From: Gammaproteobacteria bacterium
Lineage (GTDB): Bacteria; Pseudomonadota; Gammaproteobacteria; Magnimaribacterales; AG-339-G14
Assembly: GCA_019652555.1 (NCBI GenBank)
Contig: BPAJ01000001.1
Coordinates: 708,762 to 772,761, forward strand
Direction: 5' to 3'
Length of the DNA: 64,000 nt
Shown in pieces: positions 16,777 to 26,927 of this stretch; position 1 is the first letter of the stretch; every line of letters starts with the position of its first letter. Both the position numbers and the translations under genes were made by a program. The notes under the pieces were generated by a model. That model had not been told where the DNA came from and made no database searches. It was given only the letters and a program-made list of their open reading frames with translations.

Positions 16777-17529
16777 TTAGTCTAATCTTGAAGCGATTTC
16801 ATTCAAATGGCTGAAAGTCTCTAAATTGGCTTTCATGATAATTTCCATTTCGGGAACCGTTTCACTTATATCGCCCATTTTGGTTAAAACCATGTGAACG
16901 TCGTCGTGATAAGGAAGCTTGCTCATGTCCTCCAACCAACGACTTAGATTTTCAAAGTCACTATAGTCATAAAGATTGGTAAATTGCGTATTCAGTTGAG
17001 CAATTTCAACATACGCTGAAAAATCGGCAATGGTGACATGGTCTCCGGCAATAAATTTATTTTTTTTAAGCCACTGAGTTTCTAATGCTTTGAGGGCATT
17101 ATTAAACATTTTTTGAGACATATTGATTAAGTCTTCTGAAAGTCCTAAATCAGGTCTTAAAATTGGCGCAAAATAACCAGTGGATGCCTCTTTGATACTT
17201 CGGTGATGATAGTGAAGGTAATGATCGACCTTTCCTCTAAGTTCAGGATCTTCTGGGTACAAATCATCCCATTTGTGTTTGTTACATAAGTAACACATGA
17301 TTGCGATCGATTCCGATAGTAGATATCCAGTTTCAGGATCTTCCAAGCCAGGAATGGTTCCATTGGGATATTTTTCCAAATAAGAAGGATGACGAGTTCC
17401 ATTTTCTTTTGGAGAACCTGGTGCAGTAATAATCAACTCAAAAGGTAATTTTTTATAAAGCATCATCCATAGAACTGTCCTTACAGCCTGAGACATTGGA
17501 ACACCAAAAATCTTAAGTTTACTGCTCAT
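16777..17529 (-). CDS. glutathione S-transferase family protein
   Basis: A 250-residue GST. The thioredoxin-like half starts LKIFGVPMSQAVRTVLWMML and contains GTIPGLEDPETGYLLSESIAIMCYL, where the SES turn binds glutathione. The helical half includes the GST N-capping motif in FIAGDHVTIADFSAYVEIA. The distance to the next GST is two bases, so the two form one transcript. Its class and substrate are not clear; theta-like by the start. Three full GST genes and one broken one lie within 4 kb. Confidence 0.88.
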   Translation of the reverse strand: MSSKLKIFGVPMSQAVRTVLWMMLYKKLPFELIITAPGSPKENGTRHPSYLEKYPNGTIPGLEDPETGYLLSESIAIMCYLCNKHKWDDLYPEDPELRGKVDHYLHYHHRSIKEASTGYFAPILRPDLGLSEDLINMSQKMFNNALKALETQWLKKNKFIAGDHVTIADFSAYVEIAQLNTQFTNLYDYSDFENLSRWLEDMSKLPYHDDVHMVLTKMGDISETVPEMEIIMKANLETFSHLNEIASRLD

Positions 17530-17531
17530 GT

Positions 17532-18374
17532 TTAATCAAGATCACTGGCATCATGTCTTTCAGGAATTGCGTTGTCTTCCGGTCCACTAGGAGGTCGCCC
17601 TACTCTAGCTCCTCTTTTGAAGGCAGGTCTCTCAGAAATTTCCTCAGCCCAACGAACGACATTTTTATAAGATTTCACATCTAAAAATTCTGCGGCATTG
17701 TATGCATTTTTTAGCACCAAATAACCATACCAAGGATGAATGGCCATATCAGCAATGTTGTATTCATCGCCGCAAATAAATTTTCTATTTTCTAAATTTT
17801 TATCCAAGACATCTAATTGACGCTTAACTTCCATAGCAAAACGATTGATGGGATATTCAAATTTTTCTGGAGCATAAGCATAAAAGTGTCCAAACCCTCC
17901 ACCCAAGTAAGGAGCGCTACCCATTTGCCAGAAAAGCCAAGACATGCACTCTGCTCTTGCAGCAGGATCAGTTGGAATAAACTCCCCAAACTTTTCAGCA
18001 AGGTAAACGAGAATTGCACCGGATTCAAAAACTCTCGTATGTGGCTCTGAACTTCTGTCTAAAAGAGCAGGAATTTTAGAATTTGGATTTATTTCAACAA
18101 AACCACTTCCAAATTGATCACCATTTCCAATGTTAATCAGATATGCATCATATTCGGCACCTTCGTGTCCCAAAGCCAAAAGTTCTTCAAGCAGAACAGT
18201 GACCTTGACCCCATTAGGGGTTCCAAGCGAATAAAGTTGCATCGGATGTTTTCCAACCGGAAGCTCTTTATCATGGGTTGCGCCTGAAATCGGTCTGTTT
18301 ATGTTTGCAAATTTACCTCCGCTTTCTTGATCCCAAGTCCATACTTTTGGGGGCATGTATTTTTCATCTGTCAT
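17532..18374 (-). CDS. yghU: YghU-like (nu-class) glutathione S-transferase
   Basis: A 280-residue GST matching YghU/Ure2p-like disulfide-bond oxidoreductases: an N-terminal extension with KVWTWDQESGGKFANINRPISGATHDKELPVGKHPMQLYSLGTPNG, the thioredoxin half with KIPALLDRSSEPHTRVFESGAILVYLAEK, and MGSAPYLGGGFGHFYAYAPEKFEYPINRF. Nu-class enzymes bind two glutathiones and act as disulfide reductases or peroxidases. The C-terminal motif FICGDEYNIADMAIHPWYG holds the N-capping box. The ATG at 18374 has a good AAGGAGAT site. Confidence 0.88.
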   Translation of the reverse strand: MTDEKYMPPKVWTWDQESGGKFANINRPISGATHDKELPVGKHPMQLYSLGTPNGVKVTVLLEELLALGHEGAEYDAYLINIGNGDQFGSGFVEINPNSKIPALLDRSSEPHTRVFESGAILVYLAEKFGEFIPTDPAARAECMSWLFWQMGSAPYLGGGFGHFYAYAPEKFEYPINRFAMEVKRQLDVLDKNLENRKFICGDEYNIADMAIHPWYGYLVLKNAYNAAEFLDVKSYKNVVRWAEEISERPAFKRGARVGRPPSGPEDNAIPERHDASDLD

Positions 18375-18409
18375 TTTTTAATCTCCTTCAAGTTTTTATT
18401 TTAACTTTA

Positions 18410-19027
18410 TTATTCAATTTGCATACTTGGTCTTGACGATACCTCCATGTGCCATCGATGTAAGTTTTTTAAATCTTTGTGAGGTTTTAGATCTACCATA
18501 TCAGAAGCAAAATCTATTGCTGAGACTAAAGTTATATCAGCAATAGTAAAGCGATTACCTGCCACGTATTTATTTTCCTCAAATTCATTATTAAGACGTT
18601 CGTAAAAAAACCTAACATTTGTGTCACTTGCTTCTTTTGCTTTTGGAATTTGATTGAAAATTCCTAAACTTCCCACTATTGGTCCATTTACCCAAGAAAC
18701 TCCTACCTGCGTCCATAACTCAAACTCTATATGTCTATTCCTACTTTCAATATAGGCTACCTCAAAAGCATTCTCTCCAAACAAATTTGGCTCAGGCTTA
18801 ATTAATTCTAAGTAACGGCAAATAGCAACTGATTCTGAGATGCACTCGCCATTATCAAGTTCTAAGACAGGAATTTTTCCACTGGGATTTTTTTTTAAAA
18901 AATCAGCTGTTTTGTGTTCTCTTTTTGCCATGTCACAATTTATGAGCTCTAACTCTATATCCTTTTCATGAGCAAATATTTTTACTCTTCTAGGATTGGG
19001 AGCTTTTGGAAAATCATATAGTTTCAT
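18410..19027 (-). CDS. glutathione S-transferase family protein
   Basis: A 205-residue GST with the typical opening MKLYDFPKAPNPRRVKIFAHEKDIELELINCDM, the cis-Pro turn GKIPVLELDNGECISESVAICRYL, and the C-terminal capping box in YVAGNRFTIADITLVSAIDFA. It is closest by look to a family common in marine proteobacteria. It lies 25 bases after the CaiB-type transferase in the same direction, so CaiB and the three GSTs may be one operon. No substrate can be named. Confidence 0.88.
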   Translation of the reverse strand: MKLYDFPKAPNPRRVKIFAHEKDIELELINCDMAKREHKTADFLKKNPSGKIPVLELDNGECISESVAICRYLELIKPEPNLFGENAFEVAYIESRNRHIEFELWTQVGVSWVNGPIVGSLGIFNQIPKAKEASDTNVRFFYERLNNEFEENKYVAGNRFTIADITLVSAIDFASDMVDLKPHKDLKNLHRWHMEVSSRPSMQIE

Positions 19028-21753: not shown

Positions 21754-21912
21754 TTTTTATTTCTTTGATGTTACTCTAAAACTTAATACAGATTAAACAT
21801 GATAACCTCTTTTTTTACAGCATTTATGTCTTAAAAAATAAGAAGAATCTCTATTTTTTTAACCATTTGTTTATAGTAAATTAATTGTTTGATCTTCTTG
21901 GGGGGATTTATT

Positions 21913-22635
21913 GTGATAGAGCTAGAAAAAAAAGAATCAATTTATTATTTAAATATGAATGCCGGCGAAAATCGCTGGAATACTTCTTTTGTTAGAGAGT
22001 TTTCAAAAGCTCTAGATGAAGTTGAAAATGATGAAGGTCCTGGAGCATTAATTACTTCGTCAAACGACCCTAAATTTTTCTCTAATGGTTTGGATCTTGA
22101 TTGGATGCAAGATCCAGAAAGCTTTCCCGAAAGAGGAGATAGAGAGGTTTTTGGTGAAGAATTTATGTACTTGATGGGAAGAATCATTACGCTACCTGTA
22201 CCTAGTATATGTGCAATAAATGGTCATGCCTTTGGAGCAGGATTCATGCTTGCACTATCTCATGACATTAGACTAATGAGAGAAGATCGAGGATTTCTCT
22301 GTGCAAACGAAATGCAGCTTGGTTTTAAAATACCTAGACCCGAACTAGCATTATTTCGCCATAAGATTCCTGCTAATTCTTTTTTTGAGACCGTTCAGCT
22401 ATCCAAAAGATGGACAGGGCCAGCTGCTTTCGAAGCGGGAATCATTCAAGGTATAGGATCGTTTGATAGTTTACCTAAAATCGCTTTTGAAAAAGCCTCG
22501 GAACTAGCACCTCTAGCTAAAAATAGAGACCTCTATGCTTCTCAAAAGGAAATGTTGTATGGGGAAAACGCTGCTATAAATCTGAATCACGGTCCAGCTC
22601 ATATGTTAAAGAATTCTAAAGACTTTGAACGCTAA
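21913..22635 (+). CDS. enoyl-CoA hydratase/isomerase family protein
   Basis: A crotonase-fold protein of about 240 residues. The oxyanion-hole segments are KFFSNGLDLDWMQ and ICAINGHAFGAGFMLALSHDIRL. I start at the GTG at 21913 because GGGGGGA lies about eight bases before it; an upstream TTG would include that site inside the protein. The active-site acidic residues of true hydratases are not clearly conserved (ANEMQLGF where hydratases carry PExxLG), so an isomerase or hydrolase role is as likely. Confidence 0.85.
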   Translation: MIELEKKESIYYLNMNAGENRWNTSFVREFSKALDEVENDEGPGALITSSNDPKFFSNGLDLDWMQDPESFPERGDREVFGEEFMYLMGRIITLPVPSICAINGHAFGAGFMLALSHDIRLMREDRGFLCANEMQLGFKIPRPELALFRHKIPANSFFETVQLSKRWTGPAAFEAGIIQGIGSFDSLPKIAFEKASELAPLAKNRDLYASQKEMLYGENAAINLNHGPAHMLKNSKDFER

Positions 22636-22656: not shown

Positions 22657-24771
22657 CTATCCGGTAGTAATAGTTTCACTTATTAACTTTATATTCGTTT
22701 CTTGATAATTTTCTCTTTGATTTATTACATAGATAACTTCACCAGAGATATTGATAACAGGTGAGCTTTTCGTATCTATGGCATTGCCTCTAATATCGAA
22801 AATTTCCTGATTTGGATTGCTTTTGAAATTGGCAATTCCTTTACTTGACCAAATCGCTTCTATTAACCTCTCTTCTTTCTCTACAATCAAACAAAACAAG
22901 TTTTTTTCCCTTGTCATTTTTTTTGTTATACCGCCTGAAAGCATGGCTATCAAATTTTGAAAACAATAATAAGCATCTCGCTTTTTAATTTTTTCATCGA
23001 GGTTATTTACTAATCCATAGCCAGGAGCTACCAGTTGATGCCAAAAACATTTTTTTACTTTTCCAGTTGCTAACATTAAAAGATAATAGCGTACCAAATA
23101 ACTAGACTGTAGCGACTCGTCTATCAAAAAATTTTCAGCTGGGGCCCAATTTTTCATTCCATTTAAAGGCCAATTAACTTCGGTGATATACATTTCATTT
23201 GATGTTTTCTTACTAGCCCGAGCCATTGCTTTATATGCTCTGATTTTATTTAAAGTGTCAAAACCATATTGTTTTTGTTCAGGACCGCCTCTTCTGTCTA
23301 CATAGAGCTGAGCTGCTATACCATCATAGAAAATGGACTTTAAGTGAAAAACAGATCTTGAAAAGAAAGGAATATCAAAATCAATGATATTGCTCCCTAG
23401 AAGTTTAATTTTTGGGAATTTATTTTTTTTTAAATCATATGCTATTTTAAAAAAAGAGAAATATTCATCCATTGATAAAAAAGCCCATTTTTTTCTATTA
23501 ATTGAATTTCCTATTTGAAAAACTTCTGCAATACCTTCAAGCTTTGAAAAAATAAAATCCAATCTTTTTTTTGTAAGATGCTTATCAATAACATGCTTTC
23601 GATCTTGAAGTACACAAACAAGAACATCTTTATCCTTTAGTTGTTCTATAAAGCTAATATAATTTTCAATGTTTTCAAAGTCAGCTAGAGGAATTCTTAC
23701 AAGGATATTTTCAACAGATAGTTCATCAATCATTGCGATTAGTTCAATGTTGCTAATTGATTTTTGTGACTCAATTGGCCTATCGATATTTACGCATAAG
23801 CCAAAACTATCAATTTTTTTTTCAAAAGATTCTTTATCCCTTAAGAAAAAATATGGAGCAACAACACATGCATATAAAGTTGCGAAAATAATTTTTAAAT
23901 TTGAAAAAAAAGCTAAAAAGAATATTTTATTTTTTAATTTTTTGCTTTTTAAAGTATGAGGTTGATTTGAATGATAGTCCCATTCATATGATGACAAAGG
24001 TACATGCTTTATATTTTCTATAAAACTCTTTAATAATTTTTTTAATTTAACTCTTTGTCCAACTTGATAAACAAATTTTTTAAGTTCCTTATGAGTTTTA
24101 AGAGCCGAACTTGATATTTTTTTAGCATACGCATCAGCAAAAATTTTTACAATTTCAGGATCATTACTGATGCGCGCTAAATTTTTAATTCCCTTTTTTG
24201 GTGAAACAATTCCTTCTTTAAGCCTATTTAAATCAATCAAGTAGAAATCGTAACCATTCCTTGTTTTTTTGATACATATATTTCCAACACCATAATCAAG
24301 ATGCATTATATTTTTTTTATGTAAATCATAGGTAAAGTGGATAAAGTCTGAAAGGATGTCTTTATAGCCGTCTATTTTCTTATCTGTTGCCGCATCAAGA
24401 GTGAAGTTGAAATTTAGTTTGCTTGATATGAAATAACATTGTCTGAGTCGATAGCGATCAAAAACTTCAATATATCCCAGAGGTTCTGGCACATTCACGC
24501 CTCTGCCTTTTAATAATTTTGAATTTTCAAATGATCTTTTTGCTTTGCTCTTTCTAAAAAACTTGTAAATGATGGCTTGAAATAAGTTTGGGGTCTTAAA
24601 TGATTTTATAACCGTCTCAACTTCTCCTAACTTCATAACCTTAATAATATTTCTATCATCGTTAAGAATATTTTGGTTTTGGAAAAAATCTTCTTCAAAA
24701 TCTCTAAGAGTAAACCCATTTGGAAATATTTCTTTAACGAAGTGAAAATTTTCAGAACTATATATATTCAT
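22657..24771 (-). CDS. fusion of a lipopolysaccharide-kinase-like domain and a glycosidase-like barrel
   Basis: A 704-residue protein. Residues 35-215 form a protein-kinase-like fold of the Kdo/WaaP group, with K56 as possible ATP lysine, catalytic loop HLDYGVGN (D159, N164) and metal aspartate in LIDLNR (D180). Residues 282-310 are a strongly hydrophobic stretch, perhaps a membrane anchor. Residues 320-640 look like a TIM barrel of clan A glycosidases: TEVNWP (E531) would be the nucleophile, but the acid/base site that usually reads GNE reads GNS (S423). The gene is more AT-rich than the flanking blocks. A cell-surface sugar role is inferred. Confidence 0.6.
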   Translation of the reverse strand: MNIYSSENFHFVKEIFPNGFTLRDFEEDFFQNQNILNDDRNIIKVMKLGEVETVIKSFKTPNLFQAIIYKFFRKSKAKRSFENSKLLKGRGVNVPEPLGYIEVFDRYRLRQCYFISSKLNFNFTLDAATDKKIDGYKDILSDFIHFTYDLHKKNIMHLDYGVGNICIKKTRNGYDFYLIDLNRLKEGIVSPKKGIKNLARISNDPEIVKIFADAYAKKISSSALKTHKELKKFVYQVGQRVKLKKLLKSFIENIKHVPLSSYEWDYHSNQPHTLKSKKLKNKIFFLAFFSNLKIIFATLYACVVAPYFFLRDKESFEKKIDSFGLCVNIDRPIESQKSISNIELIAMIDELSVENILVRIPLADFENIENYISFIEQLKDKDVLVCVLQDRKHVIDKHLTKKRLDFIFSKLEGIAEVFQIGNSINRKKWAFLSMDEYFSFFKIAYDLKKNKFPKIKLLGSNIIDFDIPFFSRSVFHLKSIFYDGIAAQLYVDRRGGPEQKQYGFDTLNKIRAYKAMARASKKTSNEMYITEVNWPLNGMKNWAPAENFLIDESLQSSYLVRYYLLMLATGKVKKCFWHQLVAPGYGLVNNLDEKIKKRDAYYCFQNLIAMLSGGITKKMTREKNLFCLIVEKEERLIEAIWSSKGIANFKSNPNQEIFDIRGNAIDTKSSPVINISGEVIYVINQRENYQETNIKLISETITTG

Positions 24772-24789
24772 GAGGTTTTTCTAGATTAT

Positions 24790-25173
24790 TCACAACTTTT
24801 CTATGAATTCATAAAGCTGCTTTCTGAGTTCTATAATACTTAATGAAGTATTTGAATCTTGAAAAGAGAATTTATTAAATATTTCTATCATTTTTTCTTC
24901 TGTCTCTATGATAACGCTAGGAAGCTGATAATTTTTCTCTTCAATTTTTTTTGGTAATTCATTTCGGTGCAAGACTTTAACCTTATGTTGTGTTCTCAAC
25001 TCTTTGATAAATTTTAACCACTCTGATTTAGCGAAAAATTTTCCATGACTTATATCGCATAATTCACAAGTATTTTTTTTGTTTAGAATATTTTTATCAA
25101 TCCAATATGTGATTTCATTCAAAACTCCACCATCTGCATCATAGACAAAATATATAGTTTTGAGATTTTTCAT
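24790..25173 (-). CDS. uncharacterised protein with CELC motif
   Basis: A 127-residue protein beginning MKNLKTIYFVYDADGGVLNEITYWIDKNIL, with a CxxC pair in TCELCDISHGKFF. A conserved Asp-Gly-Gly start and CxxC this far in recall a small thioredoxin-like or DUF393-like family, seen in bacteria as an orphan; I cannot assign it firmly. It lies 18 bases upstream of the kinase/barrel gene on the same strand, so it probably belongs to that transcript. Confidence 0.55.
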   Translation of the reverse strand: MKNLKTIYFVYDADGGVLNEITYWIDKNILNKKNTCELCDISHGKFFAKSEWLKFIKELRTQHKVKVLHRNELPKKIEEKNYQLPSVIIETEEKMIEIFNKFSFQDSNTSLSIIELRKQLYEFIEKL

Positions 25174-25277: not shown

Positions 25278-26117
25278 ATGGAAGATAAAAAAACAGCTTT
25301 AATCATTGAAGGTGGAGGCCAAAGAGGAGTATTTTCTTTTGGAATTACTGATACTTTCATAAATAGGGCTTATGATCCATTTGATATATATATTGGAGTG
25401 TCAAATGGTGTGGCAGTTCTTTATTGGTACCTGATTAGGGAAACAGACAATAATCTAGAAAAAATGCTTTTCGCTGCTAAAGGTGATTACCTTAGTTATA
25501 AAAACATTTTTACTGGCAAAGATATTTTTAAATTTCACCAGATGTTTAAAGATGGTGAAAAAATGTTTAAACCAAATATAGAAAATATTAAAAATAACAT
25601 CGATGGAAAAGACTATATTGCAGTTGTTACAGATGCAATAGAAGCAAATGCTGAATATTACTCATTTGGTGATGACGAATGGATGCCAAAAATGATTGCC
25701 TCTGGAACACTGCCTGTTTTGGTAAAAACCCCAAGTCTAATTAATGGTCGAAGAAAATTTGATGGCGGTATTATGGACCCTCTTCCTGCTAAAAAGGCAT
25801 ATGAGATGGGGGCTAAAAGGATACTTATAATTAGAACATATGAAAAAAAATTTAGAAGGAAGTTGAAGCTTGAAAACTATATTGGTGCCTTGCTGTTACG
25901 TGAATATCCAAAATTGCGAAAAGCATTATTAGAACATGATAAAACATATAATCGAGCACTGGATTTTATAAATAATCCACCAAAAGATTGTGAAATTATT
26001 CAACTTTGTCCACCAGAAAAGCTTAAATCAAAAAGAGATTCAAAAAATATTGAGGTTTTAAAAGCGGATTACATCCTAGGAAAAAAAGTTGCTGAAGATT
26101 TTTTAGTTAATCCTTAA
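25278..26117 (+). CDS. patatin-like phospholipase
   Basis: A 279-residue serine lipid hydrolase. The oxyanion segment EGGGQRGVFSFG spans residues 11-22, the nucleophile elbow GVSNG holds S42, and the dyad aspartate lies in DGGIMDP (D162). It resembles the YjjU group rather than the longer RssA type. There is no membrane segment or signal peptide, so it should be cytoplasmic or peripheral. It is divergent to the kinase/barrel pair across 104 bases that hold a palindrome. Confidence 0.88.
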   Translation: MEDKKTALIIEGGGQRGVFSFGITDTFINRAYDPFDIYIGVSNGVAVLYWYLIRETDNNLEKMLFAAKGDYLSYKNIFTGKDIFKFHQMFKDGEKMFKPNIENIKNNIDGKDYIAVVTDAIEANAEYYSFGDDEWMPKMIASGTLPVLVKTPSLINGRRKFDGGIMDPLPAKKAYEMGAKRILIIRTYEKKFRRKLKLENYIGALLLREYPKLRKALLEHDKTYNRALDFINNPPKDCEIIQLCPPEKLKSKRDSKNIEVLKADYILGKKVAEDFLVNP

Positions 26118-26134
26118 GCTCTAAAATATATTCT

Positions 26135-26927
26135 TTATAAACCTTGAAGAACTCGATCTCGCTTTTCAATAAAGGATTGCATACCTTCTTTGGCATCCTC
26201 CGTGGCTAATGTAACTCTTCTCATATTATCAATTTCCGCAAAAGCTGCTGCCTCTCCAGATTCTAAATAAACTTGAGAGGCTCTCTTAATCTCCTGCAGT
26301 GCTATTGGCGCACACTTACCTATCTCCCTTGCAATCTCTTTGCTCTTCTAATTGTGATCCTGCAGAAACTACTTCTTGCACAAATCCTAACTCCTTAGCA
26401 CGAGATGCATCGAATTCATCAGCTCTAAGAAGGTGATACATAGCATTTCCCCAACCTGCGCGTTGAATATACCTAACGTGCGCACCCCCGAAAACTGCCA
26501 GGCCTCTTTTGGGTTCTAGTTGACAAAAACGACAATCATCCGAAGCAATAACAATGTCTGCAGCTAGCAGCATTTCAATACCAATGGTGTAAGTTATGCC
26601 CTGCACAGCTGCTACGATGGGTTTAGTACATCGACGTTTTAAGGCAAAGGCATCGGGTCGATTTTCAGAAAGTGAAGAGTCTTGGCTAGAATCAGAATTA
26701 GGGCCAAAAAAGCGAGGTAAGTCTAGTCCAGATGTAGTGTGTTTTCCTGCAAAACAAAGAACACCAACCCAAAGTTCCGAGTCCTGTTCAAGTAGTTCTA
26801 GGGCTGCAGTTATTCCTTCAAACATTTCAGGAGTAAAGCCATTCATCTTATCTTGCCGGTCAATCTCGATAATCAAAGTACTCCCTTCTCTTTCTGTTCT
26901 TATTGTGCCATTTGAATTTTGATTCAT
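26135..26927 (-). pseudogene. enoyl-CoA hydratase family gene with a frameshift
   Basis: The first 195 or so residues read well (EGSTLIIEIDRQDKMNGFTPEMF, GLDLPRFFG, AAVQGITYTIGIEMLLAADIVI). Near 26340 the frame is lost. In the +1 frame a perfect crotonase tail follows, SKEIAREIGKCAPIALQ to FIEKRDRVLQGL, ending with TAA at 26135-26137. A one-base change in the CTTTGCTCTTC region would restore a 264-residue protein. Given the many such shifts here, a sequence error is more likely than real decay. Confidence 0.75.

Follow-up and report, generated by a model that had tools for sequence, protein, structure and literature searches.

A GH39-like barrel without its acid/base glutamate, fused to a Kdo/WaaP-type kinase in SAR86 and paired with related kinases in other bacteria

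What does a glycosidase-like barrel lacking the acid/base glutamate do when it is joined in one polypeptide to a kinase of the lipopolysaccharide (LPS) type? The question is raised by a gene of a SAR86-type genome (G000; 1.24 Mb, 3 contigs), located in the 64,000-nucleotide stretch of DNA analysed here (the window), whose single reading frame physically joins an LPS-sugar kinase of the Kdo/WaaP family to a clan-A-type barrel (Table 1). A preliminary description of this gene had recognized an intact kinase catalytic loop (D159, N164, D180), a hydrophobic linker, a nucleophile-type glutamate (E531) and a serine (S423) at the place of the acid/base glutamate, and had proposed a pseudo-glycosidase that might sense or modify cell-surface glycans; these structural elements were all confirmed, and the functional proposal had to be modified, as described below. 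Among the matches listed, the nearest carriers of the fusion gene are SAR86 single-cell genomes.

Table 1. Features of the fusion gene and of its flanking genes, by position in the window
Feature	Window position	Strand	Remark or basis
Fusion gene, 704 codons, uninterrupted ORF	22657..24771	minus	Kdo/WaaP-like kinase, hydrophobic helix, GH39-like barrel, beta-sandwich
Kinase core, residues 35-215	24127..24669	minus	PF06293 at residues 68-202; fold match WaaP 6dfl
K56 in VVKSFK motif	24604..24606	minus	invariant in 30 kinases
D159, catalytic-loop Asp (H-L-D)	24295..24297	minus	H-x-D invariant in 30 kinases
N164, catalytic-loop Asn	24280..24282	minus	kinase alignment, coordinate check
D180, DFG-equivalent Asp (I-D-L-N-R)	24232..24234	minus	kinase alignment, coordinate check
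WDYHSNQP (residues 264-271), precedes hydrophobic helix	23959..23982	minus	W-D-x-x-S-x-Q-P is the family signature
Hydrophobic helix, residues 283-308, membrane-anchor-like	23848..23925	minus	hydrophobicity and model
(beta/alpha)8 barrel, GH39-like, residues 321-600	22972..23811	minus	AlphaFold2, structure search, profile-profile alignment
GNSINRKKW (421-429), end of strand beta-4	23485..23511	minus	W-N-E-P-N in active GH39 enzymes
S423, position of acid/base Glu	23503..23505	minus	family alignment and GH39 profile alignment
E531, position of GH39 nucleophile (PslG E276)	23179..23181	minus	family and GH39 alignments
C-terminal beta-sandwich, residues 601-690	22702..22971	minus	model; 5jvk and PslG structural matches extend over sandwich
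Enoyl-CoA hydratase gene flanking fusion block	21889-22635		
127-aa ORF next to fusion gene	24790-25173	minus	
Patatin gene flanking fusion block	25278-26117		

The only Pfam family recognized in the kinase half was PF06293 (Kdo/WaaP), whose cut-off of 21.3 bits was exceeded with a score of 25 bits, and the top NCBIfam model was that of the Kdo kinase KdkA (NF002475), at 25.7 bits, far below its equivalog cut-off of 142. This Kdo-kinase model matched all 30 members of the kinase clade that were scanned, 14 of which were also matched by the RfaP model. The kinase part is predicted to occupy residues ~1-253 of the full-length model, and WaaP (6dfl) was the top kinase-fold match of a full-length Foldseek search. 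The catalytic residues K56, H157, D159, N164 and D180 are intact, and the lysine, the H-x-D motif, the asparagine and the DFG-like aspartate are invariant across 30 aligned clade members; by analogy with K51 of WaaP, K56 is likely the ATP-binding lysine. The barrel-linked kinases share with KdkA and WaaP/RfaP these catalytic residues and a PF06293 match above cut-off, and differ from them in forming a separate clade, with the motifs H-x-D-[YF]-S-x-G-N and D-[LI]-N-R, and in having a barrel partner. Large ORFs (~500-740 aa) resembling tandem WaaP-like kinase domains were also seen (L008, L018, L019, L020, L023, L024), some of them adjoining GT4 glycosyltransferase genes; two PF06293 matches fell within one ORF in the genome of L008 (G052).

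The second half of the protein does fold as a TIM barrel in the model. Structure prediction and comparison with clan A glycosidases, as the preliminary description had advised, gave an AlphaFold2 model from 56 aligned sequences (pLDDT 93, pTM 0.92) in which strands and helices alternate eight times before a beta-sandwich, the topology of GH39. The best matches among solved structures were GH39 proteins, with a Z score of 31.8 over 341 residues for 5jvk and of 29.1-29.7 over ~352 residues for the PslG entries (4zn2, 5bx9, 9g17); Klotho was also among the structural matches. Neither the full-length protein nor the barrel profile gave a useful match when compared with the PDB by sequence, and therefore the link with GH39 is visible through fold comparison and through profile-profile alignment (hhalign), which related the barrel family to a set of six GH39-like proteins with a probability of 98.3 and an E value of 2e-14. 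This six-sequence comparison replaced one with a single sequence, L126, which had been weak (probability 9.7). Searches of the barrel family against Pfam, including the GH39 model, and NCBIfam yielded nothing above cut-off (best E 0.004 or worse, to unrelated families), and no match was found in the PHROGs (phage) and PADLOC (defence) libraries.

The six-protein alignment places GNS423INR on the W-N-E-P-N motif and ITE531VNW on WTE-G. A search of 114 gammaproteobacterial genomes with the Pfam GH39 model had produced one weak match only, taken as seed; this seed relative, L126, matches PslG and 5jvk, and its two glutamates align to chain positions 139 and 250, which correspond to E165 and E276 of PslG by a 26-residue offset deduced from the chain length. 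These two residues are the reported catalytic residues of PslG (PMC7237758; PMC9075953) and, via the L126 relative, fall on the columns of S423 and E531. The (beta/alpha)8 barrel, the C-terminal beta-sandwich, over ~350 residues in all, and the nucleophile glutamate are common to this family and to GH39.

The acid/base glutamate, in contrast, is replaced in every family member examined: column 423 holds alanine in 31, threonine in 26 and serine in three of 60 diverse barrel members, and glutamate in none. The serine that the preliminary description had singled out is accordingly not constant; what is constant is the absence of glutamate, which makes an ordinary glycosidase most improbable. The family also departs from GH39 in the sequence around this column, where W-N-E-P-N becomes G-N-x-x-N-R-x-K-W, in an arginine-rich catalytic face, and in the position of the beta-6 histidine, occupied by leucine or glutamine in most members; the asparagine preceding the acid/base column varies as well (N in 32, S in 17, T in nine and H in two of the 60). 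E531, within the context T/S-E-x-N-W-P, is kept in 56 of 56 barrels outside a subfamily of reversed domain order, whose four members have A, N or Y instead. For L033, L034 and L044, a pattern match had suggested lysine or leucine as a replacement for the nucleophile; the alignment shows glutamate in that column.

The barrel of the present protein has lost one catalytic residue and kept the other, and may be catalytically dead. Eleven residues are invariant in all 60 members (N425, R426, W429, G459, D464, R493, P497, K509, W534, G586 and L587), an acidic residue is conserved at position 466 (D/E) on strand 5, near D464, and 55 of the 60 alignment rows retain the W, D and S of the W-D-x-x-S-x-Q-P signature. 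Conserved polar residues of the barrel core are concentrated at the C-terminal ends of the strands, that is, on the catalytic face (17 of 33; hypergeometric p 5e-4), and identity among the SAR86 fusions is higher in the barrel (74-77%) than in the kinase core (60-66%). Decay of the active site was rejected because of these two features, the invariance of catalytic-face residues and the greater conservation of the barrel, which together argue for a repurposed pocket; the pattern fits a rebuilt pocket that is still in use. The term pseudo-glycosidase is too passive for a pocket so strongly conserved and rebuilt. Heparanase-2, Klotho and CHI3L1 are likewise glycosidase barrels without the full catalytic machinery, while the present family is bacterial, of GH39 lineage, and tied to the LPS core and to a sugar kinase; the likeness is one of analogy and not of functional homology.

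A scan of genome contigs with two pattern motifs, one of them W-D-x-x-S-x-Q-P, identified 550 barrel relatives, the best 80 of which belong to SAR86, Cellvibrionales/Luminiphilus, Thiotrichaceae, Campylobacterota and Verrucomicrobiota. Barrel and kinase are fused in eight of these best 80 of 550 loci, directly adjacent on the same strand in 23 (11 kinase-first and 12 barrel-first), and within ~3 kb on the same strand in 25 more; in five the kinase is farther away or on the opposite strand. It was not seen in the fetched stretch of the other 19, some of which are short contigs. On the question whether the fusion is widespread, the pairing is so, being present in 61 of the best 80 of 550 loci, while the fusion itself is narrow and with the kinase first was seen in SAR86 and two Cellvibrionales genomes. 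A reversed fusion, barrel then kinase (746-813 aa; L014, L016, L017 and L107), occurs in other gammaproteobacteria and is independent of the kinase-first one.

A tree of 73 kinase domains placed the fused, reversed and adjacent kinases together and eight unlinked WaaP-like kinases apart (support 100/98); the kinases fused in SAR86 and in Cellvibrionales grouped with one another. A profile of this kinase clade, searched in 274 gammaproteobacterial genomes, gave E values below 1e-20 only in G000, G062, G131 and G219, all of which carry the barrel; weaker matches (E about 1e-16 to 1e-18) are apparently generic WaaP-like kinases. These results are indicative of an exclusive tie between the barrel and one kinase clade, and no more than indicative because the unlinked sample is small (eight) and the tree is midpoint-rooted. 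That the barrel and the LPS kinase are partners, whatever the partnership does, we regard as highly probable. Five genomes with a barrel (L009-L013) have no kinase of the barrel-linked clade. The barrels of L009-L012 are short, stand alone, lack the C-terminal beta-sandwich and lie away from obvious LPS genes, with alanine in the acid/base position and the nucleophile glutamate retained.

The fusion gene is present in two of 16 genomes of the source genus. The enoyl-CoA hydratase and patatin genes that flank it here adjoin each other, ~40 bases apart, in the sister species L149, L155 and L156, and thus 22657-25173, with the fusion gene and its neighbouring 127-aa ORF, is absent from these as a block. 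The two genes form an accessory block, and the 127-aa ORF was not significantly matched by any model of Pfam, NCBIfam, PHROGs or PADLOC. Three successive minus-strand ORFs at 16777-19027 were judged by reading to be glutathione S-transferase-like, and a minus-strand ORF at 26316-26927 encodes an enoyl-CoA hydratase-like protein of 203 aa, shorter than the family norm and possibly truncated or frameshifted.

Genes for heptosyltransferases, HldE-like and HldD-like proteins, GT2/GT4 glycosyltransferases and an LpxL-type lipid A acyltransferase are neighbours of the barrel gene among the best 80 of 550 loci, and the kinase-barrel pair often lies in an LPS inner-core locus, which points to a role in inner-core biosynthesis. 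Nothing in the data shows the sensing of cell-surface glycans that had been suggested earlier. Some clues to the substrate came from SAR86 itself. PF01075 heptosyltransferases were not found in the five fusion-bearing SAR86 genomes searched (G000, G002, G018, G021, G024), while as many as three occur in some other groups of SAR86; a heptose-free core would leave Kdo as the target, and Kdo is thus the likely kinase substrate in the fusion-bearing lineages. Members of the Kdo transferase family PF04413 were found in G002, G018 and G021 and not in G000 and G024, both of which are incomplete genomes.

We propose that the protein is a two-module factor of the LPS inner core. The N-terminal kinase, of the KdkA/WaaP type, would phosphorylate, at the inner membrane, an inner-core sugar, the likeliest in SAR86 being the Kdo of Kdo-lipid A, and the GH39-derived barrel would act as its partner, held at the membrane by the hydrophobic helix. 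The pocket of the barrel would have been rebuilt, the acid/base glutamate and the beta-6 histidine being lost and the adjoining asparagine left free to vary, so that its invariant arginine, lysine, aspartate and tryptophan residues may bind an anionic core sugar and present it to the kinase, or retain it for the kinase, with no ordinary hydrolysis. As a whole, this explanation has in our estimation about an even chance of being correct. The reversed-order fusions, which have dispensed with E531 and still possess N-R-x-[KR]-W, D464, R493 and the kinase, would fit a binding role. Several observations count against it: the barrels without the kinase clade (L009-L013), the 19 of the best 80 of 550 loci without a visible kinase, and the surroundings of the fusion gene itself, which at 17-31 kb of the window include no LPS genes among its immediate neighbours. 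The retention of E531 in all 56 other barrels also exceeds what a pure binding module would need.

This last point favours an alternative, possible and yet rather unlikely, that the barrel is still an enzyme, in which E531 serves as nucleophile and the missing acid is made good by a phosphorylated or activated leaving group or by a substitute acid, for a kinase-coupled trimming or transfer of core sugars during LPS assembly. D464 or D/E466 of strand 5, the former invariant and the latter always acidic, and D390 of strand 3 would be the candidate acids, and both the conserved catalytic face and the constant surroundings of E531 speak for this role. There is also a precedent in PslG, an inner-membrane, periplasmic GH39 relative that serves a polysaccharide-assembly cluster and whose catalytic residues are needed for normal Psl production; it acts inside a biosynthetic machine, as the barrel may do. 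However, the four reversed-order fusions belong to the same kinase clade and lack the nucleophile, which speaks against a need for E531 in every member, and the variable clan-A asparagine and the mostly replaced beta-6 histidine also count against an enzyme. That the GH39 site now serves a novel reaction on LPS-core sugars, coupled to the kinase, is an unlikely outcome in our judgement; such a reaction may be, for example, a transfer or rearrangement on phosphorylated Kdo or heptose, the phosphate of the substrate replacing the missing acid/base glutamate.

The hydrophobic helix leads to a different reading, near to the proposal of the preliminary description, in which the protein spans the membrane, kinase inside and barrel in the periplasm, and the barrel regulates the kinase according to what it senses of surface glycans or of the mature core. 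The helix has transmembrane-like hydrophobicity, with a Kyte-Doolittle value above 1.6, in 45 of 56 barrel members, and over these 45 lysine and arginine are commoner on its N-terminal side (6.7 against 3.5), with the bias seen in 41, which favours a cytoplasmic kinase and a barrel in the periplasm. The location of PslG is consistent with such a topology, as is a gene for a sulfatase-fold membrane protein beside some barrel genes among the best 80 of 550 loci. The best-known LPS relatives of these sulfatase-fold proteins act in the periplasm. The same charge bias counts against the partner role that we prefer, for it would place the barrel away from the ATP of the kinase. On the other hand, the reversed-order fusions have no such helix and several other members are poorly hydrophobic at its position, the flanks are nearly equal in charge in the present protein (5 against 4), no signalling output is evident, and the full-length model (pLDDT 93.9, pTM 0.78) gives a moderate hint that kinase and barrel are fixed with respect to each other, suggesting some inter-domain contact. 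A periplasmic sensor is thus a doubtful proposition, with little probability. An ordinary hydrolase of cell-wall or food polysaccharides, fused to a kinase by chance, would account for the GH39 fold and is most improbable: none of the 60 diverse members has kept the acid/base residue, the barrel is repeatedly fused or adjacent to kinases of a single clade, and in either order, and the neighbourhoods include LPS-core genes.

The GH39-like fold and the Kdo/WaaP kinase are each already known separately. No description of the fusion or of the barrel family was found in the literature searched, which misses most subscription journals; the repeated pairing, the universal loss of the acid/base residue among the members examined and the size of this unnamed family appear to be undescribed. 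A large unannotated family with a rebuilt glycosidase active site accompanies a clade of LPS kinases in three phyla, and the genes, organisms and residues listed here allow one to ask whether a dead-looking pocket is a substrate adaptor or the seat of an undescribed LPS-core reaction. For SAR86, an abundant marine group, the results suggest an inner core with Kdo only in the fusion-bearing lineages, and one that varies between close species, since the fusion gene is accessory. Should a kinase-coupled reaction prove true, LPS assembly in Campylobacterota, Gammaproteobacteria and Verrucomicrobiota would include a hitherto undescribed step.
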